A stretch of 64,000 nucleotides of DNA from Bryoerythrophyllum caledonicum (taxonomy: Eukaryota > Streptophyta > Bryopsida > Pottiales > Pottiaceae), in contig OZ020514.1 in NCBI GenBank assembly GCA_963971425.1, positions 18,821,406 to 18,885,405 on the forward strand. Direction: 5' to 3'. Made by a program: the position numbers and the translations under genes. The notes beneath the pieces were generated by a model, which had not been told where the DNA came from, searched no databases, and saw nothing but the letters and a program-made list of their open reading frames with translations. This document shows positions 3,452 to 48,781 of the stretch, one piece after another. Position 1 is the first letter of the stretch; every line of letters starts with the position of its first letter.

Positions 3452-3661
3452 TATTCCATTTCTAAAAATTTGTTTATTTACGAGCACTTCCGGCAACTCC
3501 AAAAACTTTTGCTAGGCCACACTACTATATTTGAGATTTTCAACACTAGTAAGTTGTATACATTTTCTTTTATATTGTCCATAATCATTTATTGCTTGTA
3601 GCAAAAAGATGCATTTGAAGAACGGTAAAAGATTTTCACACATTGCCACAACTACACTAAA

Positions 3662-5402
3662 GATGGCTTTTAGTGTAATAGTACAAACTGTGTATTTACC
3701 TTGATACACTCTTTGTTAACAAGTTACCAAATACTATTAGCTCCCATTGTCATTAATATTATCTTTCAATCGTCCACCTATCCTAGTACCCGTTGTATTT
3801 GCCTCAATCATCCACCCACCACAATTTGTAACAAGTTGACAAATAGTGTTTGCCCCCAATCAACCGCCTATTGCCCGCCATGCATTTATTCTACCCGTCT
3901 TGTCCTCAACCTCATCTCCGTATCCTCCCATTTCCAACTATTCCAATTCACATGTCAGGCATTCCTTGAATTAAAAACATGAATATCTAATGAGAATTAA
4001 AAGTATATATGTATATTTTAGAAATGCATAGATGATTTGTGAATGAATGTTTCAAGAATATTTAATGTATATTTATATATTTAAGAAATGCATAGGTGAT
4101 TTGTGAATGAATGCTTCAAGAATATTTAATGAATAATTATATGTTAAAGAAAATGTATATGATTTGTGAATGAATGTTTCAATAATATTTAATGTATAAT
4201 TATATGTTAAAGAAAATATAGATGATTTTTGAATTAATGTTTTCAAGAATAATTAATGTATATTTCTAAATTTAATAGTGTAATAAAAGATTCTTGAATG
4301 AATGTTTCAAGAATATAATATGTATAATATGTATAATATGTATATTGAAATCTTTAAAGATTAAACAATAGTTGATGTATCTTTGTATCTCTTTAAGAAT
4401 ATTGAAATTAATATATACTAATATTTAAAGGATATTGGTTTATTTAAGGCACATTGCTATGTTTGAAGAATATTTACTATACAGTACATATGTATATTTA
4501 ACGAATACTTATTGTATATTATTATATTTAAAGATCATATAGAAAATACTTCAATAGCATTTCAAGAATATATTATGTATATTGAAATCTTTAACGATTC
4601 AAAAATAGTTAATGTATCTTTGTATCTATTTAAGGATATTGAAATAAATATATACTAATATGTAACGAAAATTGGTTTATTCAAGGTATATTGATATGTT
4701 TGACAAATATTTAATGTACATATATATATTTGACGCATACTTATTGAGTATTATTATATTTTAAGATCATTGAGAGAAAACTTCAATAGCATTTAGTAAA
4801 AATTTAGAGTTTCACATTTATTTTTCCTAAGAGGATTAAAATATCTAAATTAATGTATATTTGCAAAATTATAAAAGAATACTTAATGAATAGCTAATCG
4901 TTTTAAAATGTATATTTAATGAATATCTGATGAGTATGTAATGGAAACTTCTATTTTTATTAGATATTTATGTTGTTTTGTATTCCAATTTTCCTTTCTT
5001 TTCCCTCTTTTCTTCTAAATCAAAGTTCTAATTTTTTTAATCTAGTAGTTCTAGTTTCAGTTTTTCTCCACATGAACATTTTTTGTTGTCAATTTTTTGG
5101 GATTTTCCATTTGTTCCATATGTACGTTCTATTATTTTTAAACATTCCTTGTGCAATTTTTTTTCCTTTCTACATGCACTCAAAATCTTCTTTATTTTGA
5201 TGCTTTAAATGTACACATTGTAATTTTCTAGGTTACATACACTAAATGTAGACAAGTAAAAAACCTAATGTTGCACTACTTATAGAATTGACATTTACTA
5301 TAGTAGTTGACATTTAGTGTATAGTATTGTCACTACATCAATGGATAACTTTTAAATTTGTATATGGGTTTGCATTTGGTGTCCACTACACTAAAAGCCA
5401 TT
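3662..5402. mobile_element. Nested non-autonomous element, copy 1
   Basis: The left end reads GATGGCTTTTAGTGTA and the right end is its reverse complement, TACACTAAAAGCCAT. A second copy with the same ends lies at 21152-22456. Both contain the same left part (TTTGTTAACAAGTT, then TCAATCGTCCACCTA) and right part (GACATTTAGTGTA, TTGTCACTACA). The interior is AT-rich, tandemly repetitive and without a recognisable protein. Each copy interrupts a different repeat whose uninterrupted form exists elsewhere in the window, which supports real insertion. Confidence 0.65.
4020..4800. repeat. Tandem repeats inside the nested element
   Basis: About four units of roughly 63 bp start near 4033, 4097, 4160 and 4223, each with TGATTTGTGAATGAATG or a close variant. 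They are followed by a duplication of about 235 bp (near 4325-4560 and 4565-4795), whose copies share ATTGAAATCTTTAA and ACTTCAATAGCATTT. This is AT-rich satellite-like expansion with no coding signal. Confidence 0.65.
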
Positions 5403-5569
5403 GTTATTGTAGAGTGACAAAGAACCACCAAAAATTATATTTTTGCACATAAATTTGAGACATTATTTTGGACTTTATATTTTTCAATTACAAGACGTGG
5501 TGTAAAACTTTGGAAATAAAAAGTCCCCTTTGCAGTAAAAGTCCCTTTTGCTAAGTTTATTTTTTTTGG

Positions 5570-6425
5570 CTGCCCGTTGCCCGATGCTCCTGCCCGCTGC
5601 ACGCTGCCCGAAACGACATTTGGCGGAGCGGTGAACCACCGCGACTCCCTCACTTCTCTCCCCATTCTCTCTTCCTCTTCTCTTCTATCTTCTCCTCACA
5701 GCTCTTCTCTCTATCTATCAAACCTTTGTCTCTCAATCTCTTCTCTTTCAACCTCTCATTTAGTTTGTTTTTGCGCAACCTCCTCTCTATCAGTTTGTGT
5801 TAGGTCTACGTTGTGAGTTGAGAGGTGTGTGTGGTGAGGTTGGAGTTGTAGTTTCGTGTTGTGAGGTGTGTATTGTAGTTTCGTGTTGTGAGGTGTGTAT
5901 TGTAGTTTGTGTTGTGAGGTGCGAGGTGTGTATTAGGCGTGTGTGCGTTGTGCGGTCATAGTGTTGTTAGGTGAGTGTGTGTGTTTCGTATGTGTGTGAG
6001 TATTGTAAGGTGTGTGTGTGTTGTTAGGTTCTGTGTTCGTGAAGTTTAGTTCATTTTAGGATTTAGTTTAGTTTCGTTTTGGTTAGGGTTTCGATTAACC
6101 TTGTTTTCTTGCGAGGGGTTTGTAAATGTGATTGTTTAGTTGCGTTTAAGGTTAATTGTTTAGTGCGTTCAGGGTTTCATTTGTTAGAATGTCGGCACAT
6201 AGCATAGTGCAAGATTCTGGCAGGGTTTAGGGTTTCTACAACACATTGCAATTTTTGTGATAACATTGGAGTGTAGAGTTCCTTGAGTTTACATTTTGAA
6301 GGGTTTTGTGTTTCATTGTGCATATTTCTGTGTAGATTACTTTTGTGACATTACATTGTTCCATAAGTGCACTATGTGCAACTCTAAAGCTCAAACACAC
6401 AACAGACTCCCATTTCATTCGAAAG
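5570..6425 (+). promoter_or_regulatory. Probable promoter and 5' leader of the downstream gene
   Basis: A GC-richer block (5570-5650) is followed by a strongly CT-rich tract (about 5645-5770) and then a long TG-rich stretch (about 5810-6060) that leads into repeated TTAGGGTTT-like words (6085-6240). Plant transcription starts often sit in CT-rich patches, and AAACCCTA-type boxes are common in plant leaders. A possible splice donor, AAAG/GTAATA, lies at 6426 and could open a 5' intron holding the first palindrome cluster. No coding frame is convincing. Promoter identity is inferred from composition and position only. Confidence 0.35.
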
Positions 6426-6541
6426 GTAATAATTTTCATATCATGTGAGTTGCAATGCAGAAGTCTCAATTCAATCTCATCTAAATAATATAATCCATAA
6501 TTTATGAGGTTAGGGTTTCAGATTCAACAAGGATCACAATT

Positions 6542-7227
6542 TATTCTCGAGTCGAGGATACGAGATAGTCCGTTGGCTTACAGCTAATCCTCGAGTCGAG
6601 GATAAGAGTCAATATTTTAATTATAGTTTATCCTCGAATCGAGGATAAAAGTCAGTTAAATACAATTTAACATAAGGATATAGCTCAAATAATCCCTTCA
6701 TAGCAGTCCCACATATCCTCGAGCCGAGGATAAGTGTCAACCTTGTGCATACAACTCATTTAAGAATCTAGGGTAATTTGATCCATTCGAAAACTTACAA
6801 TAATTCTGTCATATTATACTTATGCATGATGTAATATAACAAAAAACACTTTTGTAACAGATTAAAGTATCCTCGAGTCGAGGATACTTATCAATCCAAT
6901 AGTTTCATGTCCATTCTAAAGTCAAGAATATACCCGTTACTATTAAAAAATCAGAATATACTAATTGATCTATAATAGATGCATGAAGTAAGTTGACGAG
7001 AATCTCATTCCCAAGAGTCCTTTGTATCCTCGAGTCGAGGATACAATCCAACCTCTGTCTATTTCACCAGGTATAATTCACGAAAATCAATATATTTGGT
7101 CTCCGTTATGATATAATATCTAAATTAACAACTTACAGAATGTCTTTATCCTCGAGTCAAGGATAAATGTGCGAAATGAACTTATTGAAGTTGGAAGCGA
7201 TTAATATCTATCCTCGAGTCGAGGATA
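6542..7227. repeat. Array of eight 19-bp palindromes, family 1
   Basis: Eight copies of TATCCTCGA-N-TCGAGGATA (9-bp arms around one base) start at 6542, 6586, 6629, 6714, 6868, 7025, 7147 and 7209. Those at 6629, 6868, 7025 and 7209 have perfect arms; the others carry one mismatch. Spacing is irregular (43-157 bp) and the spacers are unrelated AT-rich sequence, so this is neither a tandem array nor a CRISPR array. The last copy ends just before a strong 3' splice signal (pyrimidine-rich, ending CTACGCAG at 7274), which suggests that the cluster lies in a 5' intron. Confidence 0.9.
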
Positions 7228-8630
7228 ATGTTAGCGTTAACTTTCTTACTCGTTTTCCTAATATCTCTACGCAGCTCGCCATTCCCGATGGATCCCGTCG
7301 ACAACTACGACTACTCGGGGTCAACCTACTTCATCACGGAGTTCGAAAATCCCGTCGCCCTGTTGCCTTTCATCGACGACGTCGTCGAGAACTACGGGAA
7401 GCTGTGGTCGTTCAACCCCGACATCTTTTGATGGTCCCTCTTCATGTCGGAGAAGAACGTTCTTTCTTTCAAACTGAAAGAGGAAATTCCATATGTTCCA
7501 TTAAACAGAAATGAAAGAGTGACGTTCGTGGAGCAACGTCGACGCGATTACATCGTTCTCGGTATCAAGGCCGTGAACGATGTTGGGGAGGACCTTCCGC
7601 ACTTTCACTCTATTGTTGTAAAAGTGGGTGACACTTCTGGGCAGTTCGACTTCAACGAATTGCTTGAAGGTGCTGACAAATATGAGCAGAGGGCGTTGCG
7701 TGAAGCGTTTGAAAAATACAGTCCGTGGTCAAACGATGACGTTGAGAAGGTTAACAGGAGACTAGTACGTATTCACCAACTCCTGTAGAACTTTGAGGCC
7801 CGTCCGGTTCCGGTAGCTACCGGAAGAGCGCAACAGCCGGCGACGTTACCTCAAAAGTGGCGGATGCGACTCGAAGCACGAGTCGTGGTGCTCCACGGAG
7901 GGCTTCTGAGATGGCTTCGAATCTAGACGAACCGTCTAAACGGAAAAAGACTGCTACTGCCGGTGGGAGTTCGACCTCGACTGTTACGAGGGCTGCAACT
8001 CCGGTGAAATCGCGGAATGACCCCCAAGTAGACTTCGAGAAGATAACGGAGTCCCAAAGATTGTTCTGGGAGGAGTGCAAGTCTTGCTTCTCGTTCGAGT
8101 TCACATTCACCGTAAATATCGAACAGTGTGTGCCCGCCAAAGCACAGTTTGTGATTCGTGGGATGGAGGAGGGTATAGTCCGAAACTCCATGGACTTCCT
8201 GGTCCAACTTGGAGAAGTAAACCAGCGGCAAAAGATTTGCATTTGCCCAATCGATGACGCTAGAGAACCAATAACGCGGAAGCCCAATTCCTGGGACGAT
8301 ATCAAGAATGGGAAGTTCATGCTAATCAATGGACAACACAACGTCGAAGCTTCCAGAAGACTTCAACGTGTTGAACAATGCGGGGAGCAACGCAAACGGG
8401 ATCTTTGCCATTGGGATGCATATGTTGTGTGGACAACAGATCCTCTGAAGTTGTAGAGGATTTCAAAGTTCTACAACGACACCAACTACCTTGATCATGC
8501 CCAGCCTACGTGAAGGAATCAGATTTCAAGCTGCAGGAGAATTTGGCTCAACTCCGGTACACCCAGCTACCAACACGACGAGGGCGACTTGCGAATGAAT
8601 GGTGCCAACTTCGACCAAGAGAAGTACTTG

Positions 8631-8804
8631 GTAAGGTTCCAATTCCTTAAGTATCCTCGAGTCGAGGATTATCTTCCATGCCTTTTTGTGTACCCGCTAG
8701 TTGATTTGTTATATGCTACTTGTCAAAGTATCCTCGAGCCGAGGATACTCTTCCATGTGGTATCCATGATTACTTTTTCCAATGTTGTCTGTACTATGTT
8801 GCAG
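8631..8804 (+). other. Intron of the palindrome gene, with two palindromes
   Basis: The donor GTAAGG at 8631 and the acceptor TATGTTGCAG ending at 8804 bound 174 bp, a multiple of three, and the reading frame is the same on both sides. Two family-1 palindromes lie inside, at 8652-8670 (one mismatch) and 8729-8747 (one mismatch). Because 174 is divisible by three, the intron is also open in frame, but its composition is AT-rich and unlike the exons. Confidence 0.75.
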
Positions 8805-10127
8805 TTGTTTGCAAAGTTGATTGTCACGCGCTTCCAGAACATCAATCCCACGAGGGAAGGGAAGCAAGTGAACAAGTCATCGGACCTTACCAATGAGATT
8901 AAGGTCATCACTCTTCCAGATGACATTTTCAACCTCTGGGAAGGATTCCTCGATCAGCACAGCCGCGGAGACATCGTAAACCCCGACACAACTTGTCCAT
9001 ACAACGACGCTAGGGATTTCAAGCCTTCGCCAATCCACCGTGAGTTTTTTAAGAGGTTGGGTCATCTGTTTGACTAGGATTTAAGAGATTTGTTCACTTA
9101 CCTGGTTGACAGTGATCGCGGGCAAGGTTATCCAAAGGTCACGCTTTGTAGGACTGGCATGGTACATGGATTGTGCTACCACTAGGAGGAGTGGGCTGAT
9201 CCAAGGAAGAAGAAGCGCGTCGTCATGCAGGAGCTGGTGCACATCGACCCATCTTTATTATTTTTACTTCCAAATGGGTCGATCGACGACGCAATGTGGA
9301 AGGAGTGGAAGGAGAAACACCGTGTGTCTTCTGCTACTTACAACATGCTCCTCTGTCAACCCGACAAAGAGTTCTGGTCGATGAGGTTGACCAATGCAAG
9401 GAAGCTGAAACGAGCATCTCATCTGTTGGAGAAGTTCCCGAACGTTCTTCCGTTCTTCAAGAAATTTTTACATTTGAAGAACTTGTTCACCCCGCACGAT
9501 GGATATGTGAAACTTCGCGAGTTTAATGCAGAGAATCTGGAGTTTGGTGATTACTTCACCGCTCCAGATGATTCTAAGGAGTTTACACTGGGACTTCTCG
9601 ACCTCCGTGAGGTACCCGGCTAGCTGTCCAAGGACGACTCCCTGGACGAACCATACTTTGTAGACTTCATGAATGCCATGAATTTGCAAAAGAGTACCCC
9701 AAACATGAGCACTCCTCATGTTTGGATCTGGATCACCTCCTCTGCCAACCGCGCGTTGCAAGCTGCAAAGTTTGCCGAGAAGCGGATGGCCCGGTATTTG
9801 CCCGTCTCCTCGGCGTACCTTTCGTCAGCCAATGAGCGCCTGTATTACGGGACGTCTAGGGCTAAGGTTACGGATGTGAACCTACTCTTCCTAGTGAAGA
9901 AGAGTCATCCCCAGGCTTCCGTGCTCATCAACAAAGTGAGGCTGTTCTACTCTGCACCAGATATATTCATCTACAAAGAGAAGAATAAGTATCTGGAGGC
10001 AGAATTCTCCGTCCACGGCTCGGAATTACGGATGGAGTTTCACTTGGAGCTACTCTGGGACTTCTGCAATCGAAAGGAGAGGGTTTTCGGAATTTTTTGT
10101 GGTTCCAAATTTATGCTGTCCAATCTG

Positions 10128-10356
10128 GTACGCTCTCATTGAATCATTGTAGTCTATCCTCGAGTCGAGGATACACCTTACGGTATGCTGTCGTCTGTAA
10201 CATAGTAGTCTATCCTCGAGTCGAGGATAGACAGTTTTGTCTGATCATTAGTTTTAAAGTGGTTTATCCTCGAGTCGAGGATAGACAATTGATTTCATTT
10301 CAGAATTTATTTCCCATTATCCAATTTATAATCTTGATTTCTACTGTCTCATGCAG
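10128..10356 (+). other. Second intron of the palindrome gene, with three perfect palindromes
   Basis: The donor GTACGC at 10128 follows a codon boundary (CTG), and the acceptor CTCATGCAG ends at 10356. The 229-bp length moves the downstream frame, which then opens with MFGTSFYGLIDESFRLQ, so the splice is needed to keep the protein in phase. Three exact copies of the family-1 palindrome start at 10155, 10211 and 10265. Confidence 0.75.
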
Positions 10357-11544
10357 ATGTTTGGAACGTCGTTCTATGGACTCATTGATGAATCCTTCCG
10401 GCTTCAGTACAAGAATCAAATGCAACGCATTTTTCAGTTGGACATGAATGATTTCATCCACAAAGACTGTGCTTACCTTCAGCCTTTGCCTTCCAACGCT
10501 TGAAGTGCATTTACATCGACCGCTCAGGCTGCACCTCCGGAACGCGTTCCAAGGGCCCGAATATCGCCAAGGAGGGCTGAATGTGTTCGCCAACGTGCTC
10601 AACACTCTGCTGCTGGATCGTGGCAAGACTTCCTCGAGACCCAGAGAGCATCAGGTAGCGGTGCACCGACTCAGCAGCCTCCTCAGGATGACTCTCCCTT
10701 GCTCGTAAATCCATACGGGAGCAATGACGGCGTCGATCTTTCGATCCTTAGCTTGGATGATAGTGAGCCGTCATATCGATCTCGTACGAGATCGCCGCCT
10801 CGCGGACCTCTTGTGCTCGCGGACGAAGACCTTCCGGTGGATGGCAAAGCTGTTCATATGGAAGTTCAAGGCGGTCCTGACATATCTCCTTTGGTTGGTA
10901 CCGCCCCTACACCGGATGCTTCCGTCGCTAGTACCACCGCCGCAGCAGATGTTCCCGTCGCTCGTACCGTTGTAAAATATATCCCTGTCATCCTACTGTC
11001 CGACTCCACTGATGATGAAGGTGGAGATCGTCCCAATATATCTCAGAATGTGGGGGCACCGACCGTGGTGACAATGATAGTTACGATGGATGTAGAAGAC
11101 GCTTCCCTACCTGATGCCGCCTTCGTAGATGCAGCTGGGCATGCTCCGGCCCCTCGGCTGCCGGTGGGGGGCGCTTCTTTACTTGATGACGCCTTCGCAA
11201 ATGCAGTTGGGCATGCTCCGGCCCCTGGGCTGCCGGTGAAGTACGAACCCGGTGCTGACTTTTATGAGCACCTACGCAAGCAACACCTTCAGGAGCGGCA
11301 GGAGAGGCAGACAATCTTGGCACAGTTAAAGGCTGCCCAGAAGTCATAGGCTGGGATGGAATCTGCTTTCGAGAAGCAGCGGCCGGAGTCTGATAAAGAG
11401 AACGAGAGGATGGCGGCGTCAATCCGCGCGAAGATCCAAGCGCAGATGTTGGTGGAACTCAACCGACGTCTTGCTGAGCAAGCTCACATTTTGGTTCACA
11501 TCCCTGCTCCTCCATCCGGATCCATCGTGTCTCATCCCTCGACT

Positions 11545-11721
11545 TATCCTTGCACCGAGGATAACTCTGTGGCTGAGCCTCAGCCTCGTTCAACTGGATT
11601 GCAACCTTGCGCTTCATCTAACCCACTTGGAGAAGCCGCCGTTTTGGTTGAGGTGCCAATTCTGCTTGGGGATATTCCCTCTTCATCGTCCGGGCCTTCT
11701 GAGTACCCTCGACTGAGGATA
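11545..11721 (+). repeat. Two degenerate family-1 palindromes inside coding sequence
   Basis: TATCCTTGCACCGAGGATA at 11545-11563 is read as Y-P-C-T-E-D, and TACCCTCGACTGAGGATA at 11704-11721 begins Y-P-R-L. The intact palindrome read in this frame would give Y-P-R-V-E-D. The second copy is one base short (CTGAGG instead of CTCGAGG), exactly where the reading frame shifts from frame 1 to the frame that remains open to 11948. Restoring a 19-bp length would bring both halves into one frame. Confidence 0.65.
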
Positions 11722-12400
11722 CTCAACCTTTTAATCCAACTCCGATTTCGCCTATGGCAGATGGGGTCGGCTTTGCTGTTCGTGTGCGTGATGTCCATGT
11801 TGATGGTGCTCCTGGCGGTTTGACTCTTTCGGTCCCTACTCAACTTATAGAAGAGCCATCTCATGCGGTAGCTGCGGTGGAGGGAGAAGAGGTGTGCATG
11901 GAGGAGCGCGTCGACTACGAGCCGTCTCCCGAGCCTCGCGGGCCATAGTCATCAGAGGTGGATAAGGTTGGCTAGCTTTTTAATACATTTTTGCCCGTTT
12001 TATCACGAAGTGCAGCCTTGATTTTTTGGAATGACTGTACTCAACCTCAGACTCAGTAGGTTTTTTCTTGGATGTGTTTCCATGCAAGCGTCGGATCCAT
12101 ACGCATTTTGATGTACTTTACGAGGAGTGTATATTTTTGTATATACAATGTTATCATAATTCAAAGAATTGTTTAACGATTCATTTTCTTCAATTGTTTC
12201 TCAGATTGGATTGGATGACATTGTCCACCGTCCTCTTGCATTGAAGTCTCCAATTGGGATAGTTGTATCCCAGTCGCTATGTGGGGGGGAATTTGTGCAA
12301 GCAGTGGCAATTCCATTGCATATTATTCAATCTTCATTTTATCACGTACCTACCACTTATTGCTACCATTGACTGTATTGTGTGTTGGTCCTGTCCCTAG

Positions 12401-13203
12401 ATCTTGTTCCTAGAACTGTGTCCGTTGTTGAGAGCGCCGGACCAGCAAAGTGGCTAAATCTCGTCACGGATTTGAATGGCATTCTATGCGTGACGGATTC
12501 AGTCTCTATTGCTGTGAGGCTTACCGCGCATAGCTCACAATGGACTGATTATTTGTCGACCATTCCTACCTTGCTTGGACCAAAGGCGGTCTACTTTCGT
12601 CCTAGTGTTCGTGAGTTCTTATCGGTCATCGGAAACTTTCTGAACTCTGTCGTCATCTGGAGCTCTATGAAGAAATCCATAGTCGAGGCAATTGCGGCTT
12701 GTCTCTTTAGGGATCTGGAGCCTCCTATTCTTGTTCTAGGTCAAGAGAAATGTTCACAGATAAAAACTTCTCGGAATGTGTACCTCATGGCTAAAGATAA
12801 TAAGGAGAAGCCAATGTTTTTGAAAACCTTGTCGAAAACGTCGTTTAGCCTTCGGCATGAGTCGGTAGTCTTTAACTCCGACAACACTCTTCTCATAGAT
12901 GACAGCCTGGAGAAGAGTGTTTGTAATTTTACCGGGAACGCCATCTTCCTGCCTCCATGGAGACGCGGAGATACGAATGATAATGTCCTTACCGGGATCC
13001 TTCTTTTGTGGCTTCGCCGCTTGCATTCTGAATGTCCTCTCGAGCAGTTGAAGAATTACATCGACAGTAATCGTACAGGGGCACCTCTTTTGTTGCGTAA
13101 TAGTCCCATAATGAAGCATATCATTGATGGAATGGCGCTCTCCACAAGGAACATGGGTACTATGTACGAGATTCCCAATGTTTTTAAATTAGCTCCTAAA
13201 TAG
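12401..13203 (+). CDS. FCP1/NIF (CTD-phosphatase-like) domain exon, catalytic motif degenerate
   Basis: An open stretch of about 267 codons follows a possible acceptor (GTCCCTAG, ending at 12400) and has no good ATG, so it is probably an internal or terminal exon. In order it shows WLNLVTDLNGIL (12469: DLNG where the family has D-x-D-G-T), VYFRPSVREFL (RP box), VVIWSSMKK (the T-A-S region), FLKTLSK, and LLIDDSLEKS with the conserved Asp pair at 12898-12903, then AIFLPPWRRGDTNDNVL. This order and spacing are those of the HAD-superfamily FCP1 homology domain, which removes phosphate from Ser/Thr, classically on the RNA polymerase II tail. The second catalytic Asp is Asn and the following Thr is Ile, so activity is doubtful. 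It lies on the same strand as, and 450 bp after, the ParB-motif gene, and could be its 3' exon, a second gene or a captured host gene. Confidence 0.7.
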
Positions 13204-13505
13204 TTGTAGGAGTAACTCCTACTCAAGATATAGGGGAACTTCATATATTTAGGGGTTTTCAATGTAGGTTTAGTGCGCCGGATACATTTTGTTCTATACT
13301 TGTAGCTAAAACGTACTTGTAAATCTTGTATATATTTTGAAAATTGTTAATATATAAATCCATTCGTTTTCTCCTTCTACATATTTGTCGTGTTTGTCAC
13401 CTCTTATGATGCCATGAACTTATCTTCAAGTCAAGCATAATTTCATTGCCTTGCATGTGTTCATGTTCTTTCTCTCATTCCTTGCTTTATTCCAATGTAT
13501 TTCAG

Positions 13506-14248
13506 GTTTCAAAGTCTAGTGTTGATCCTACCGCATGCCTGAATATTGGTAGTATCTGCCCTCGGATGTTAGCGTCATTCCGGAGTACTCTGGGTCTTAT
13601 GGTGGTGACATCTCCCAGCCCCAGTAATTGAAACCATATCTTATGTGCACTGTAACTGATGTTGCCTCTGCTATCATGGACATCTCCAAGTAGAAGGTCG
13701 ATGATGGTGTTGTGGATAGCCTTCCCGAGCGGAAGGCTGGGATAGTGCCTGTTGCATCCCCTTCACCTCTTAAGCGAATGTTTGCTGAAGTTCAAGATAG
13801 AACCGATTGTACTCCTCAACGGAAGCTTTACGGAGATGATGGTGTCGATCTGAACATGGAGAAGGAGGATGTGCCTAATTCTTCCGATTGTAGATAGCCG
13901 CCTGCTAAGCAAAGCCGGTATTTCGCTACACGTTCTCAAGGTGCTATGAAGGACATAGCCCGTCACAGTCGTTCACTGAGGTGTCAAACTCAATCTGTGG
14001 GTATACAGCCAAGGCTTCGAAGCTCAAGACCGTCAACGAATCAAGTGAAGTCTGTTCCGTCTCGAGTTCGTGATGGTTGTGGGGCTCTTATTGGTCTGTG
14101 TCCTATGTCATCACTTTCTGAGAGTGTGTTGGCAGTTGACTCGGATTGGTGTTTTAAGCCTTATTCTCGAAGAAGGAAAATCATGATTGGTTATGCAAAA
14201 TTTAAAGAGCAAGAGGCATTGCGTCTGAAGGCCCAAGGACTTGAGTAA
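13506..14248 (+). pseudogene. Decayed downstream exon of the FCP1-like gene, function unknown
   Basis: After a TTTCAG acceptor at 13505 a reading frame can be followed to a stop at 14246. It contains the stretches YLPSDVSVIPEYSGSYGG, RKAGIVPVASPSPLKRMF, KQSRYFATRSQGAMKDIARH and the basic C-terminus KPYSRRRKIMIGYAKFKEQE. In-frame stops occur near 13558 (TAG), 13626 (TAA), 13692 (TAG) and 13895 (TAG), and the first 40 bp are open only in another frame. The product is basic with low-complexity patches, and I recognise no family. Its position after the FCP1-like exon suggests the same transcript, but no splice donor could be fixed. Confidence 0.45.
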
Positions 14249-14887
14249 AATGTATCTAATAGATACATTTAGTAGACAATATTATATGATGATTCTATAT
14301 GTTAGGGTTGATTATTCTAGAATCTATTCGGGAAGTTGTCTCCGTGTATAGCTAGCAGTGAGTTGTTTGGATTTTATAAATAAAGTTTTCTAAATGATTC
14401 ATTTCGTTTGTGCATATTATTCTAAATGCATGTATATTTGTATGGGGTTCTATTATTAATAATTTGTAGTTGGAATCGTTGCATGTTTACTTCGCTTTTG
14501 CCTTCTACCATGCTAACACCTTTGTTTTGTCACTTTTGATTTCTAATTTTAGATTTCCATTTTTCAGGAGCATTTAGTTTTGGTGAATGGTTGGTTCTCT
14601 ATGGTAGTAGCGAAGATAGATCTATCATGTCATACCACTTTAAATTAACAATTAACTTAATGTCTAAGTCTTTAGTTATTATTTGAAATATAACACAATA
14701 GTATGTACTCTAAGAGAACTTTCTTCCAATATAGGCACTCCCTAACTTGTTGATAATTGGCCCAAATTCAGTAAATTACCTTTTCTTCTAAGATAAATAT
14801 TTAGAGTTTTTCCATTACAATGTTGGGGGGATTGCTTGGTGATGCTTTTCCTTATGTTGTTTATTGTATTTTACAGTTTGCAATTAA
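14249..14887 (+). terminator. Non-coding gap with a possible polyadenylation signal
   Basis: There is no gene here. An AATAAA hexamer at 14379-14384, about 130 bp after the last stop, could serve as the polyadenylation signal of the FCP1-like transcription unit. A small hairpin (TGTATCTAATAGATACA) begins near 14251. The rest is AT-rich and leads to the broken edge of the minus-strand retroelement. Confidence 0.3.
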
Positions 14888-15836
14888 CTATACACGTTGT
14901 TTATTGTTCTGAAATAATAGGCTTTTAGTCTCAAAATTCACAATTTGTCTCATTTTATTGAATATAGTGTTAGTATAGTAACCCGCTATAGATTCAATAG
15001 GATACACCTGAAAACTTTGTAATTGATCTTGCAAGGTATTATGATAAGACTGAGGTCTAAACCTTGCCAAAAATGCATCTTTTAAAGTATCCCAGTCTGC
15101 TGGTCGAGGATTTAATGCTGCATACCACCTCTGAGCTTCCCCTAGTAAATTACCAGGAAAACTAGTGATATACATATCAACTGCTAAATTATTAGCTATT
15201 GCCACTACTTGGAATCTTTCCAAGTAGGAATCTGGATCCTCTCCTAAATCTCCATAGAATATGGAAAATAGAGCTATATTAAGCATCATAGGATGCGCCA
15301 TAGCAACGGGATCAACCAAGGGGTCGTCAGGAGTAGGAGGGATTGAAGGTGGTGAGGATAATGAGGACCTACTAGAGGTAGAATTAACCGTAGAAGTGTC
15401 AGAAGGAGAAGTCCTCCCAGAAGTACCTGAGGAATGTCCAGCTGGACTCTCTACTTTTGATGGTGGTTCTGAGTGTTCTTCTTCTTCACTAACACTATTA
15501 AGTTTACTTTCACCTCCTTTAGGCTCACTTTGCCCACTTACGTCAAATTCTTCCTCTTTAATATGATTATACTTAACTTCCTCTTCCTCCACACTAGATT
15601 GGTCAATCTCTTCTTGTATGTCAAAATTTAAAGTAGTAGGTCTAAAAATTCGGCTAAATGCTTCTAATATTTCCTTACAAAACTCATATTTTTCTTCCTC
15701 ATTTTCCAATGGTCTGGCATTAAGAAAGTGGTCAATAGATTCTCTTGCTTCATTTTGAGTAAATATTGGTATTTCTAATTTTGACTCAAATCTTTGGGCA
15801 AAAAAACTTGGATAGGGAGTCTCAAAGTCTGTTTGG
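14888..15836 (-). pseudogene. Ty3/gypsy-type retrotransposon gag, truncated
   Basis: Read on the minus strand from about 15836, an acidic Ser/Pro-rich N-terminal part (EEEEVKYNHIKEEE, SSRSSLSSPPSIPPTP) leads into a retrotransposon gag core near 15290-14990. The core motifs are FYGDLGEDPDSYLERFQ, AQRWYAALNPRPADWD, LKDAFLARFRP and ESIAGYY, which are typical of plant Ty3/gypsy nucleocapsid precursors that coat element RNA. Homology stops near MRQIVNF, and no zinc knuckle, protease or reverse transcriptase follows, so the element is broken at about 14930. An in-frame TAA near 15839 separates it from the upstream frames. An LTR and primer-binding site on the same strand lie upstream. Confidence 0.8.
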
Positions 15837-16169
15837 TTTTAGGAGTTACCTACTTCGTAGGTACGATCAATTGTGAAGGAGTGTGGTATGGGGATTCTAA
15901 ACAATTGTTCTAACTCATCAAGTTGTTCAACGTTAACGTTAAGTATATCTACATTAACAAGTTTTTCATCTTCCTCTTTTGAGGATTCTTCCTTTTCTAA
16001 GGAATTAGACCAAACTTTCTCGCTTTGGGTCTCCCAATTTACTTCATTTGGGCTATTAGAACAACAAGAGTGAGTAGTATATTTTTTATCTTTTTCTTTT
16101 TCCTACATATTCCTTTTCATGATTTTTTAAAGCTGCGAGTACTAACTCTTTTGGGGTAAATTGTGCTTT

Positions 16170-25239: not shown

Positions 25240-27705
25240 ATGTTGTCCTCGGAGGACAATGATGTTCATGTTGACGCTCGCGTGAACCTAGACCTTCCTG
25301 AGTTTGATGTTATTCCTCGCCGTCTCTGGGTTGAGATGACTGTTTCGCTTTACAATGGTTCGGGTGTTCGCGTTGTAGAGGGGTTGATTCGCAATGTCCG
25401 ATCCAGTGCAATTCTAAATTCGTCTGATCCTCTTTGCGATTCAAATGTTGTAATAGGAGTGTCCAGTTCTTTTGTTGAGGAGGAAGCTCCCGATGAATCG
25501 AGGTACTTGTTTAATTCTTGGCCAATTCAACAAGTCTTTTTAAACGGTGTGAGTCTCTTCCATCGTTGCCTTAGGGACGTTTACAATATCACGTTGGTTG
25601 AGCGTAACAGACCTCTAGGTGGGAGCTGCCGTTCGTACCACAATTCCTCAAGGAATACACGTCTAACAATGTCTAGGAATGTTGAATTCCTCATGATCCC
25701 TCATTCCATTAACGCAATTGCGAACAATAGTTGTTGCATTCAAAACTGTGTTCAATACTACCCTAGAGATAAAATAAAAGTCCTCCGGACGCGCTTGTAC
25801 AGTGAGATCAATGTGCAGTTCACAAATCATATCAAACTCGACGTTCACAGACAGTTTCATAGAAATGCTGCAGGTAGGAAGGTTGTGACCCTAGACGGTG
25901 TGGATATTTGTGCCCATCCCTGGATGAAAATCATGGGTATAAGTTTGAGTACTTTCTATCGGAATGCAAAGGGCGCTGCCGCTGGTCATACAGCTCATCA
26001 CCACAGGAATACCGGTTCGCGTTAGCCTAGAGGTCATATGGTTGTGGCTACTGTCGCTCTTGGAGCCATCCTCAATAGACATGCAGACCACATGCCTCAC
26101 AAGTCTCGCGTTCTCCCATCTAGCGAGAAGGCTGTGGCAAAGGTCCTCCCTGCAAGTTTTAGGTGGAAGGATCAGTTACCGCTTCTTGATGATCACCTCG
26201 CTGAATGTGGATTGCCACCAATCTCAACCTCAAGCTTGAGTAAGAATTGGCGAGTGAGCTTCCCTGAGTACTTTGCCAAGATAGGTGGAGACAACTTTGC
26301 ATGTTGTTCTACGTGCGACAAATACAAGGATAAGAAGAAGCTTACTCAACCAAGAACACAAGCGTCACTGCTATGGCAAAAGAAGATTCAGGTTCACATC
26401 GATTCTGCTTTCGCACATCGGGACTTGTACTACCTGAACTGATTTCGATCAAAGTCGTCGCCCCAAGAGGTTCTAACCATCATGCAGGATAAGATGGATC
26501 ACTCAAAGACCCCCTCCCCAATTTTTTCACATAAAACAAAGCACTTAGATGGGCTTTTGAAGTTGCCTCTTGCAGTCATAGGCATGCTTGCCCATGGTCA
26601 TGTGGACCAGCCTTACGCCCATTACGGCCTTGATTTATACTCCCATGATGCCAATTACTCGGTTGGTATGTTTGTAAAACTATTGCGTGACTTGGAGGCA
26701 CCTCCGAAATCATGGTCCCGCCAAGTCTTTCCAATATCTAGTTCTGGATGAGTTTTCCAACCATTCCTTTGCTCATGAGATCATTCATGAGCAATGAGAG
26801 TGTTCCGATGACCCCGCATCTCATCCAAGAGGTTCCTGACTTTAATAAGTTCATTGGGGATATGATTGCGAACGGTGATGAAGCTTTGTAGGGTCATACG
26901 AAGGCTCATCAGTTCAAGTTTATGTGGATTGAAGTGGTTGTCCGGTAATGAAGTAAGTATAAAATCCTTTGTCATGATGAGGATTGGCTTTCTAAGGGAG
27001 GAGAAGGTAGGGCATAGAATTGTGGAAGGAGGATTCTGAAGGGAGAAGTTTATGGCCTTGCAGAGAACCTGATGCATTGAAGCCTTCTAAGATGCGGCAT
27101 CTCCATAAGGTGGTGAAGGGACTTTCAGGATTCGTCGATCACTGCGAGCAATTATTATGGGAGTCTCTTGAAGACAGCTCGCGTTTTGAGCCGCTATCGT
27201 AGTATTGGTCCGACGTTAGAGATGCTCTGACTCTTCCAATGGATACGCCAATATCATTGGAAGGCGACTTTTGGCCAATGACGTGAATTGCCCAAGCCAT
27301 TGAAGATGAGTTTTCAGCGGAGAGTGAGGTTCGCTAGAAGTACTGTGAAGATGAGCATTTTGTTGGCTAGAGACGCGATCCTCCACCTCCTTCTTTTAGA
27401 GTTGGTCGTGATCTTTTTGCTCGCTATTTTGTTGCATTGCGGCCTTGTGATGGAGACGAGCGTCCATTTTGGATCGCTCAAGCAATTTCAGATCCTAACT
27501 CTAACCCGGATATGCCAAACGCCGTCTACATCCAATTCTTTTGCCCTATATCGCGCAATCGGGATGTTCTGAAGTTCTATAGAGATTGGGATACATATTG
27601 CAACCTTCACTGGACAGTTGAAAAGGGGATAGCCATAACATGGGAAGTACCGATTAAATCTTGACAGCGTGGAAAATTAGGTCTTCAAAGAGGGATGGAG
27701 GTCAT
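25240..27705 (+). pseudogene. DUF7869-type transposase-like gene, decayed
   Basis: One reading frame runs from ATG 25240 (MLSSEDNDVHV) to about 27010, broken by TAG near 26023, TGA at 26440, TGA at 26749, TAG near 26890 and others. Frame shifts follow before ELWKEDSEG (27020) and RPFWIAQAISDPNSN (about 27455-27510). Landmarks are HPWMKIMGISLSTFYRNAKG, SFPEYFAKIGG followed by a C-x-x-C pair (CCSTCDKYK), IMQDKMDHSKT, KLPLAVIGMLAHGH, AHYGLDLYSHDANYSVG and MTPHLIQEVPDF. I recognise these as the conserved blocks of a transposase-like family with a DUF7869/RNase-H-like core that is widespread in plants and animals. A block is missing between QVFPISSSG (26748) and IPLLMRSFM (26764), so a central deletion is likely. 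The product would have acted on its own element's DNA, and the family-2 palindromes lie directly upstream. Confidence 0.65.
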
Positions 27706-47369: not shown

Positions 47370-48781
47370 AGTAGGCCACATTGGAACACGGCTTTGCGAA
47401 GGCGAAGATAAAGAAGGTGGACTGCGCATGGGCTTTGTTCTTCTACGAGCATAACATTTTGTTTGCCGTGGCCTGGTCTACAAGTTTTAGAGAGGCGGTC
47501 AAAGAATTGTTGACCTACAACTCCCCTACCTACCTTAATTATACAACAATCTTCAAATACAACTATTGGATGACAAGAAGAAGGAACTCTCCAGTGACAT
47601 GATGTTGAAGATGGGGTGCTTTATCCACAGCTTTGGTTGCACTATCTATGTTGATGGATAGGCTTTTGTGATCAACCGGCTATTGATGAATATCATGCAA
47701 GTTTGCCACGCAGGAGAGGAGTTCCTTGCGTCCGTAGACCCCTCTGGGGAATTTAAAGACTACAAGTATGTGGTGAACAACATGACAAAGTACGTGGAGG
47801 TTGTGGTTTCTACTATTGTCATATAAATCTGCACCGACAACTCTGCGATGATAAGAAGGTGGTCAAGAAGGTGCAAGAGAAGTATCTCTACATATACTTC
47901 CAAGAGTGTTGGGCCCATATTATGAACCTATTTATATGTGCTTTCGAAAAGCAGGCATGGGCCAAGAAATTTGTGAGCAAAGCAAAGACCATCGTGGACT
48001 TTGTGAAGAAGCTGCATATACCTTTGTCGGTCTTTTCCTTCTATGAGAAGAACCTCTCCTTCACCAAACCTTGTGCCATGCGCTTTGCCACAAACTATGT
48101 GATGATTGATTGTTTATAGAAGGTGAGGAAGGTGCTGGAGGTCACCATTGTTAACACAAAGTGGAACTAGTATGTTAGGACATTAGGGAGCGAGAAGAAG
48201 TTCAACCATTGTGAAAAGGCAAGGAACACAAAGAAAGTTGTGCACTGCGAGCAATTTTGAGGAGCATGCGACAATGTTTGTGAGCTCCTAAAATTGGCCG
48301 TCCTCGCGTTGAGGGAGTTCAACGAGAAGAGCCCTTGCATGGCCAAGACGCATGTCATAATGACAAACCTTAAGAAGCATGTGCGGTCACTACGAAATGT
48401 ACCAATGTCATTGCCCCCCTATGTTGCAAACCAAGTGGAAGAGCTTCTTGAAATATGGTGGTCTTTGCTAGGCACCGACCTCCACTATGCAAAGGCACTA
48501 TTGAACCCATACCTCATCAATGATAGGATGCTCCACAATAAATGTGATGCAAGGATTGCGATGCACAAAATATTTGAGAGTTATGTGGCTGGCAACACTA
48601 ATGTGTTTGGTGACGAGGATGACAACTACGGCCTAATAGACTGGCACTTGCACAACCATTGGCAATTCAACACTACATCGGTGCCTGTTGCGGTGCCCAA
48701 CAACATGGAGAGAGGAGAGGTTGAAGCCAAAGACAACAAGGTGGCATTATTGGTGCCACCAAACCTGCCCACAAAAGAATG
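47370..48781 (+). pseudogene. hAT-type (DUF659-like) transposase remnant
   Basis: The plus strand, across two frames, gives CAWALFFYEHNILFAVAWST, FREAVKELLTYNSPTYL, FGCTIYVDG, INRLLMNIMQVCHAGEEFLA, SVDPSGEFKDYKYV, ICTDNSAM, ECWAHIMNLFICAFEKQAW, SFYEKNLSFTKPCAMRFATN and LLGTDLHYAKALLNPYLIND. This order (F-x-x-x-N-I-x-F..., C-T-I-x-x-D-G, S-V-D-x-S-G-E, T-D-N-x, C-x-A-H, T-R-F-x-T) is that of the DUF659/hAT transposase core, including the catalytic Asp region and the C-x-x-H helix. Stops near 47661 and 47826 and a frame shift near 47840 inactivate it. No terminal inverted repeats were found. Confidence 0.7.

Follow-up and report, generated by a model that had tools for sequence, protein, structure and literature searches.

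A short palindrome repeated in the non-coding parts of a probably transposon-borne gene: a candidate cis-acting tag, possibly read as an RNA hairpin

Background

Why should one broken moss gene carry the same short palindrome more than a dozen times, mostly in its introns and leader? The gene lies in a 64,000-nt stretch of the Bryoerythrophyllum caledonicum genome (contig OZ020514.1, positions 18,821,406 to 18,885,405), referred to below as the window, and its product resembles, by predicted fold, a ParB protein joined to an amino-methyltransferase. The answer tentatively favoured here, with a little less than even confidence, is that the palindrome may serve one transposon-like gene family as a conserved cis-acting tag that is recognised in the form of an RNA hairpin.

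Results and discussion

Palindromes in the window

With at most three mismatches allowed, TATCCTCGA-N-TCGAGGATA matches the window 14 times. Shuffled sequence of this length yields 0.02 matches, and a count of 14 was not seen in any of 100 shuffles. Thirteen of them, spanning 6542-10283, have one mismatch or none (seven are exact), and only four of their 208 arm positions deviate. Eight lie in 6542-7227, two (8652 and 8729) in intron 1 and three (10155, 10211 and 10265) in intron 2, and the number, places and seven perfect copies given in an initial annotation of this DNA are reproduced by the recount. The view expressed there that the palindrome is confined to introns holds for these 13 copies but not for two decayed ones (at 11545 and, probably, at 11704) in the open frame of exon 3. 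No match with up to three mismatches was found in the 64 kb outside this gene. The match at 13421 was not counted as a copy: it shows four faults, and the window contains 11 matches of that quality where a simple model predicts 4.8. No report of the motif was noticed among the top-listed matches of openly licensed PubMed Central papers.

The spacers between copies, first described as unrelated, are mostly so, except that flanks are common to the copies at 8652 and 8729 and likewise among the three intron 2 copies, and that the copies at 6714, 6868 and 7025 each close a 66-nt stretch, the three stretches being 62-71% alike (repeat search, 20 of 30 repeat families). Some copies therefore arose by local duplication. 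The observation that arms remained perfect in a broken gene stands for the seven exact copies but proves little, given that a young pseudogene would be expected to change little anyway.

A second locus with the same arrangement

Genome contigs of prokaryote species were scanned for the exact pattern and two loci were found. The informative one, L002, is a 4235-bp contig (CADCWO010000074.1) binned in a cyanobacterial metagenome-assembled genome and annotated as encoding a cyanobacterial protein; the contig is evidently eukaryotic and the record looks like contamination. Its minus strand carries an uninterrupted homologue of the window gene, with tblastx pieces 65-72% identical, and an intron at the same codon as intron 1 of the window. 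This intron carries an in-frame stop and the L002 gene must therefore be spliced. Of the five palindromes in L002, intron 1 holds one and the leader the other four; the contig stops short of intron 2. Exon DNA is 70-75% identical between the two loci; once the palindromes are removed, intron 1 is 62% identical (64% after shuffling) and the leader intron 66% (65% after shuffling). The other locus (L001, Natrialba) has a single site, attributed to chance because some 3.7 exact matches are to be expected in 257 billion bases. A viral link was also considered and rejected: a profile of exon 1 has no relatives in viral contigs, the pattern with 18 fixed bases has no matches there, and a looser pattern matched three viral contigs at one site each, which was provisionally put down to chance.

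The same comparison bears on an introner-like origin, in which the introns would be copies of one element and the palindrome its remnant. Such an origin would account for a motif that is common to the leader and both small introns and that lies near the 5' end in the small ones. It is nevertheless very improbable, because the introns of the window and L002, palindromes aside, are no more alike than shuffled sequence, no longer repeat is common to different introns (20 of 30 repeat families), and the palindrome also occurs in exon 3.

Translated introns of the wider family

Two protein searches returned 56 homologues, 52 of exon-1 type and four of exon-2 type. Gene callers overran the splice donor, so that many of these frames include translated intron; the first overrun residue is valine, as a GT donor demands, in 46 of 47. 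Allowing no more than one mismatch in 16, a back-translation scan detected 30 palindrome-compatible stretches, compared with 1.9 in shuffled proteins. Thirty-three of the 52 exon-1-type proteins run at least eight residues past the donor, the remaining 19 ending too early for overrun scoring, and a palindrome-compatible stretch occurs in 28 of these 33 overruns (27 of 32 when P0001, the protein of L002 itself, is excluded); those without are P0006, P0013, P0019, P0021 and P0031. None was found in 19,439 coding residues of exon-1-type relatives, and the leader gave two in 207 residues. For the exon-2 type, the motif is found past the donor in three of four proteins, P0029 being too short to judge. 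Position 5 of the palindrome varies in the translated introns together with its partner, as C-G, G-C or T-A, with exceptions in P0027 (C-C), in P0046, P0048 and P0049 (T-G) and in the P0012 leader, where it is unpaired; a few other relatives show one fault at other positions.

Both intervals first proposed as introns are borne out by their GT...AG ends (8631-8804 and 10128-10356) and, for intron 1, by the intron at the same codon in L002. The expectation that relatives would carry copies in the same introns agrees with L002, where the surroundings are unrelated, and with the 28 of 33 overrunning frames.

Distance to the 5' splice site

Among 21 non-redundant members (28 with the seven near-identical ones that were removed), the first palindrome starts 17-32 nt past the donor in 20, most commonly at 21 or 22 nt, the sole outlier being P0020 at 80 nt. 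A start within 18-30 nt, an interval picked after inspection, is seen in 18 of 21 members whereas 4.0 are expected from random placement in the same overrun (p about 5e-5), and in 14 of the 16 with an overrun of at least 23 residues, against 2.6. The peptides between donor and palindrome are 0.095 identical, against 0.083 by chance, and the compared coding region of the members is 58% identical (median). In the window, the distance is 21 nt in intron 1 and 27 nt in intron 2, and in the intron 2 relatives P0002, P0004 and P0028 it is about 28, 19 and 24 nt, respectively, as counted from peptides.

A role as source or target of small RNA, also suggested initially, would be in keeping with identical 19- to 25-mers repeated within one gene, but no support for a small-RNA source was found, a solitary stem of 11 bp is short for a Dicer substrate and the spacing from the donor would be left unexplained; this is the least probable of the explanations considered here, with hardly any weight given to it.

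Pairing beyond the core

Pairing was analysed in the 18 sites read as DNA (13 in the window, five in L002) with permutations that preserve column composition. In the three bases outside each arm, 36 of 54 cells are complementary where 20.7 are expected (p 2e-5). The excess is also found without three local duplicates (31 of 45 versus 17.3, p 4e-5) and at each locus, with 24 of 39 in the window (p 2e-4) and 12 of 15 in L002 (p 0.02). The excess ends there, the next three bases outward being complementary in 11 of 54 cells. Two-sided changes are seen in 15 cells versus 5.7 (sd 2.0) and the covariation score is 0.173 versus 0.072, values that none of 500 shuffles equalled in either case, and both are lower in slid-strand versions. 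Folded as RNA, the 25-mers form a stem of at most 11 pairs around a 3-nt loop. Because the three outer bases pair though they are variable, the conserved object is an 11-bp stem, and the length of 19 bp first given to the repeat is too short.

A mutational process that spreads or mends palindromes (mobile mini-palindromes, template switching) and is tolerated under weak coding constraint would be expected to leave traces of this kind, as template switching gives complementary flanks; local duplication is visible, and most copies occupy introns and leaders, the exon holding decayed ones. On the other hand, such a process does not readily account for the lack of matches (at most three mismatches) beyond this gene in 64 kb, for a core kept across relatives of median 58% identity, for the spacing kept from the splice site or for pairing that ends after the third outer pair, and it is considered improbable.

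Gene layout, product and linked frame

The coordinates of the gene and of its palindromes are collected in Table 1. The leader intron (about 6426-7274) is probable, as suggested by a donor-like and an acceptor-like site. The CpG observed/expected ratio is 0.97 in the exons (7287-8630 and 8805-10127) and 0.66 in the whole window, and the broken copy therefore seems not methylation-depleted.

Table 1. Positions of the gene, its palindromes and the linked open frame in the window
Feature	Position	Strand	Remarks
Probable leader intron, eight palindromes	6426..7274	+	donor-like GGTAATAA, acceptor CGCAG; four L002 copies in the matching stretch just before ATG
Palindrome 1	6542..6560	.	one change, T-G pair
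Palindrome 2	6586..6604	.	end mismatch
Palindrome 3	6629..6647	.	
Palindrome 4	6714..6732	.	
Palindrome 5	6868..6886	.	outer pairs extend to a 25-bp palindrome, 6865-6889
Palindrome 6	7025..7043	.	outer pairs extend to 7022-7046
Palindrome 7	7147..7165	.	one change
Palindrome 8	7209..7227	.	
Coding exon 1, disrupted by stop codons and a frame shift	7288..8630	+	from comparison with L002: N-terminal domain, ParB/sulfiredoxin-fold domain at about 8100-8500
Intron 1, 174 bp	8631..8804	+	GTAAGG...TTGCAG; same codon as L002 intron
Palindrome 9	8652..8670	.	starts 21 nt past the 5' splice site of intron 1
Palindrome 10	8729..8747	.	
Coding exon 2, broken	8805..10127	+	amino-methyltransferase-like fold in second half, as modelled at low confidence for relative P0002
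Intron 2, 229 bp	10128..10356	+	GTACGC...ATGCAG
Palindrome 11	10155..10173	.	starts 27 nt past the 5' splice site of intron 2
Palindrome 12	10211..10229	.	outer pairs extend to 10208-10232
Palindrome 13	10265..10283	.	
Coding exon 3, broken, end approximate	10357..11950	+	
Decayed palindrome (14th)	11545..11563	.	open frame of exon 3; one fault by the pairing model, three mismatches to the letter pattern
Probable decayed palindrome (15th)	11704..11721	.	open frame of exon 3; deletion in core
NIF-type (FCP/SCP) phosphatase-like open frame	12373..13203	+	PF03031, E 9.7e-10

The ParB/sulfiredoxin fold was predicted from the intact relative L002, and the amino-methyltransferase-like fold from a low-confidence model of the exon-2 relative P0002. 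At the place where the CTP motif of ParB (usually GERR) is expected, the family reads INGQHS in 51 of 52 proteins and INGHHS in one, the GERR-type motif being absent. The catalytic motif of amino-methyltransferases is DPPY/F/W; DPP is absent from all four exon-2 relatives, which read [LM]DxxxxPxx, with GxYxGxK in the motif I region (by eye). The usual catalytic motifs thus seem to be absent from the product, as judged from its sequence. Helices past residue 416 are of low confidence in the predicted structure, a model that lacks the exon junction. Neither exon 1 nor exon 2 corresponds to a family in Pfam or NCBIfam, a Pfam scan covering two exon frames of L002 and three frames of the window gave only PF03031 above cut-off, and sequence searches of the PDB returned nothing convincing.

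The NIF-like frame probably belongs to the same unit as the ParB-like gene: relatives of the two are found on contigs of equal length and same source (P0002 and P0059 at 7391 bp, P0032 and P0064 at 8588 bp). NIF/FCP phosphatases have a DxD catalytic motif; the frame reads DLNG here, and Asn replaces the second Asp in all 33 homologues holding the motif, the stretch being missing from 11 of 44. Among these 44 homologues, one weak palindrome match was detected inside the domain (P0058) and none beside it, so that the tag is not evident around this part of the unit.

RNA hairpin or DNA operator

A hairpin in the primary transcript is favoured by two observations, the pairing past the core and, in introns 1 and 2, the position close to the 5' splice site. 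In the mechanism that we tentatively propose, the tag would act there as an 11-bp stem with a 3-nt loop, the stem comprising eight pairs that hardly vary and three outer ones whose sequence differs between copies. A copy in fixed place would begin about 21-24 nt past the 5' splice site of intron 1, with the intron 2 copy at a similar distance, and extra copies of the hairpin may build up in the leader intron. The likeliest reader would be the gene's own ParB/methyltransferase-fold product, binding its own transcript, and it might control splicing or output, for instance through retention of intron 1 that would yield a short protein still containing the ParB-like domain. Presence, conservation, pairing and spacing of the palindromes, as well as the predicted folds, are read from the sequences; what we infer is that RNA rather than DNA is the form recognised, which protein reads it and how splicing responds. 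The most specific version of this proposal is doubtful: a family of eukaryotic transposons would tag its own transcripts with a fixed hairpin about 21 nt past 5' splice sites, the RNA tag would be read by its own ParB/methyltransferase-fold protein with apparently dead enzyme motifs, and RNA would replace the DNA sites of bacterial ParB.

Several observations weigh against a hairpin tag. All eight leader copies are at least 116 nt from the presumed donor (the first at 116 nt), and together with the two decayed exon copies they indicate that closeness to a splice site is not required. Relatives besides L002 were scored by compatibility of peptides with the motif, and the sites read as DNA amount to 18 at two loci. 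In the translated introns of the relatives, flank pairing is 20.2 versus 17.8 (p 0.18). Under a looser background, outward positions 7-9 show some excess (p 0.018), which becomes p 0.26 with column composition kept. Relatedness of the copies can inflate both the two-sided-change count and the covariation score, and two stricter measures are close to expectation, with three pairs showing two-sided change versus 2.6 (330 of 500 shuffles as high) and nine further pair types versus 7.8 (136 of 500); these measures are low-powered because the outer three pairs hold nearly all of the variation. The pairing could also be produced if template switching mends imperfect palindromes. Finally, Rfam gave two weak matches below the gathering score in 5400-14800 of the window and none in L002.

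Repeated copies and a ParB fold are also what would be expected of a DNA-binding system. In this alternative, the palindromes would be double-stranded DNA operators, dyad sites for a dimer of the element's own ParB-fold protein, forming a parS-like or VANC-like array that marks the DNA of the element against silencing or for modification. The VANC proteins offer a precedent (PMC5735166), and the alternative is nearly as likely as the RNA hairpin, though likewise short of an even chance. It predicts neither outer bases that are variable yet paired nor a constant distance to the 5' splice site; the GERR motif is replaced by INGQHS or INGHHS, and a helix-turn-helix domain was not seen, the low-confidence helices past residue 416 being all that the model without the exon junction offers. 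Whether RNA or DNA is the form that is read, the likely reader would be the element's own protein. The initial proposal of binding sites for a protein remains a leading one, with a gene that encodes a predicted ParB fold, but the outer pairing and the donor spacing, both unseen at that stage, point to an RNA hairpin.

Mobile nature and genomic surroundings

The gene is probably transposon-borne and the window holds a broken copy of it. Near-copies occur on many contigs: P0033, P0039, P0041, P0047 and P0051, for example, come from five contigs of different length and share 63-90% of aligned residues pairwise, and other groups show the same behaviour. These near-copies and the broken state of the window copy point to a mobile element, as far as can be judged from sequence. 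Local alignment of the flanks revealed no convincing terminal repeats around the gene, the best inverted match being 66% over 122 columns, AT-rich and far off, so that the mobile nature rests on the dispersed near-copies. No transposase was found among the nearby frames scanned.

Other traces of mobile or repeated DNA were detected in the window. A retrotransposon gag domain (PF03732, E 7.7e-10) occurs downstream of the gene on the opposite strand (14888-15838, minus strand). Matches to DUF659 (47757-48116, plus strand, E 6.5e-4) and DUF7869 (26443-26748, plus strand, E 2.8e-4), both below curated cut-offs, are perhaps transposon remnants. An inverted repeat (1550-1701 and 3465-3616; 152 nt, 89% complementary, 1.8 kb apart) perhaps represents the ends of another element, and AT-rich sequence at 3986-4328 holds five diverged copies in tandem with a period of about 64 bp.

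Comparison with known systems

According to a 2025 paper, the Sola1 transposon of Ectocarpus has an accessory gene that is ParB-like and methyltransferase-like. Green and red algae are reported to have similar proteins, and these algal proteins have been proposed to bind and modify their own element (PMC12477816). The window family resembles them in having a ParB-like and then an amino-methyltransferase-like fold in one eukaryotic gene, with near-copies on many contigs. It differs from what is described for them in that no transposase was found nearby and the methyltransferase catalytic motif was not seen, and in the linked NIF-like frame and the palindromes. That paper does not use the word palindrome, and its one passage on ParB mentions no target site (PMC12477816).

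In the VANDAL/VANC system of Arabidopsis, the element likewise encodes the reader of a short motif that recurs in its own introns and upstream regions, and motif variants exist between lineages (PMC5735166). The trait that recurs here is the presence of many copies of one short motif in the element's own non-coding parts. The VANC21 motif is YAGTATTAY in arrays of one orientation, with the word palindrome absent from the paper (PMC5735166), while the motif of the window is palindromic, paired at its edges and spaced from splice sites, and belongs to a gene with a predicted ParB-like fold.

A ParB-N fold and short palindromic sites are also features of bacterial ParB-parS, Noc-NBS and KorB-OB; unlike these systems, the window family is eukaryotic and spliced, has INGQHS in place of the CTP motif and shows variable paired outer bases. 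Retention of the P element intron IVS3 gives a short regulatory protein, through an exonic silencer and the host proteins PSI and hrp48 (PMC7776569). The likeness to the control proposed for the window gene is in plan only, the P element not relying on intronic hairpins.

These data provide a concrete candidate target for ParB/methyltransferase-fold accessory proteins, well defined in its sequence, in its rule of pairing and in its location. Should the palindrome act as an RNA tag, it would be a new means for a mobile element to recognise and regulate itself; should it act as a DNA tag, it would be a eukaryotic counterpart of parS.

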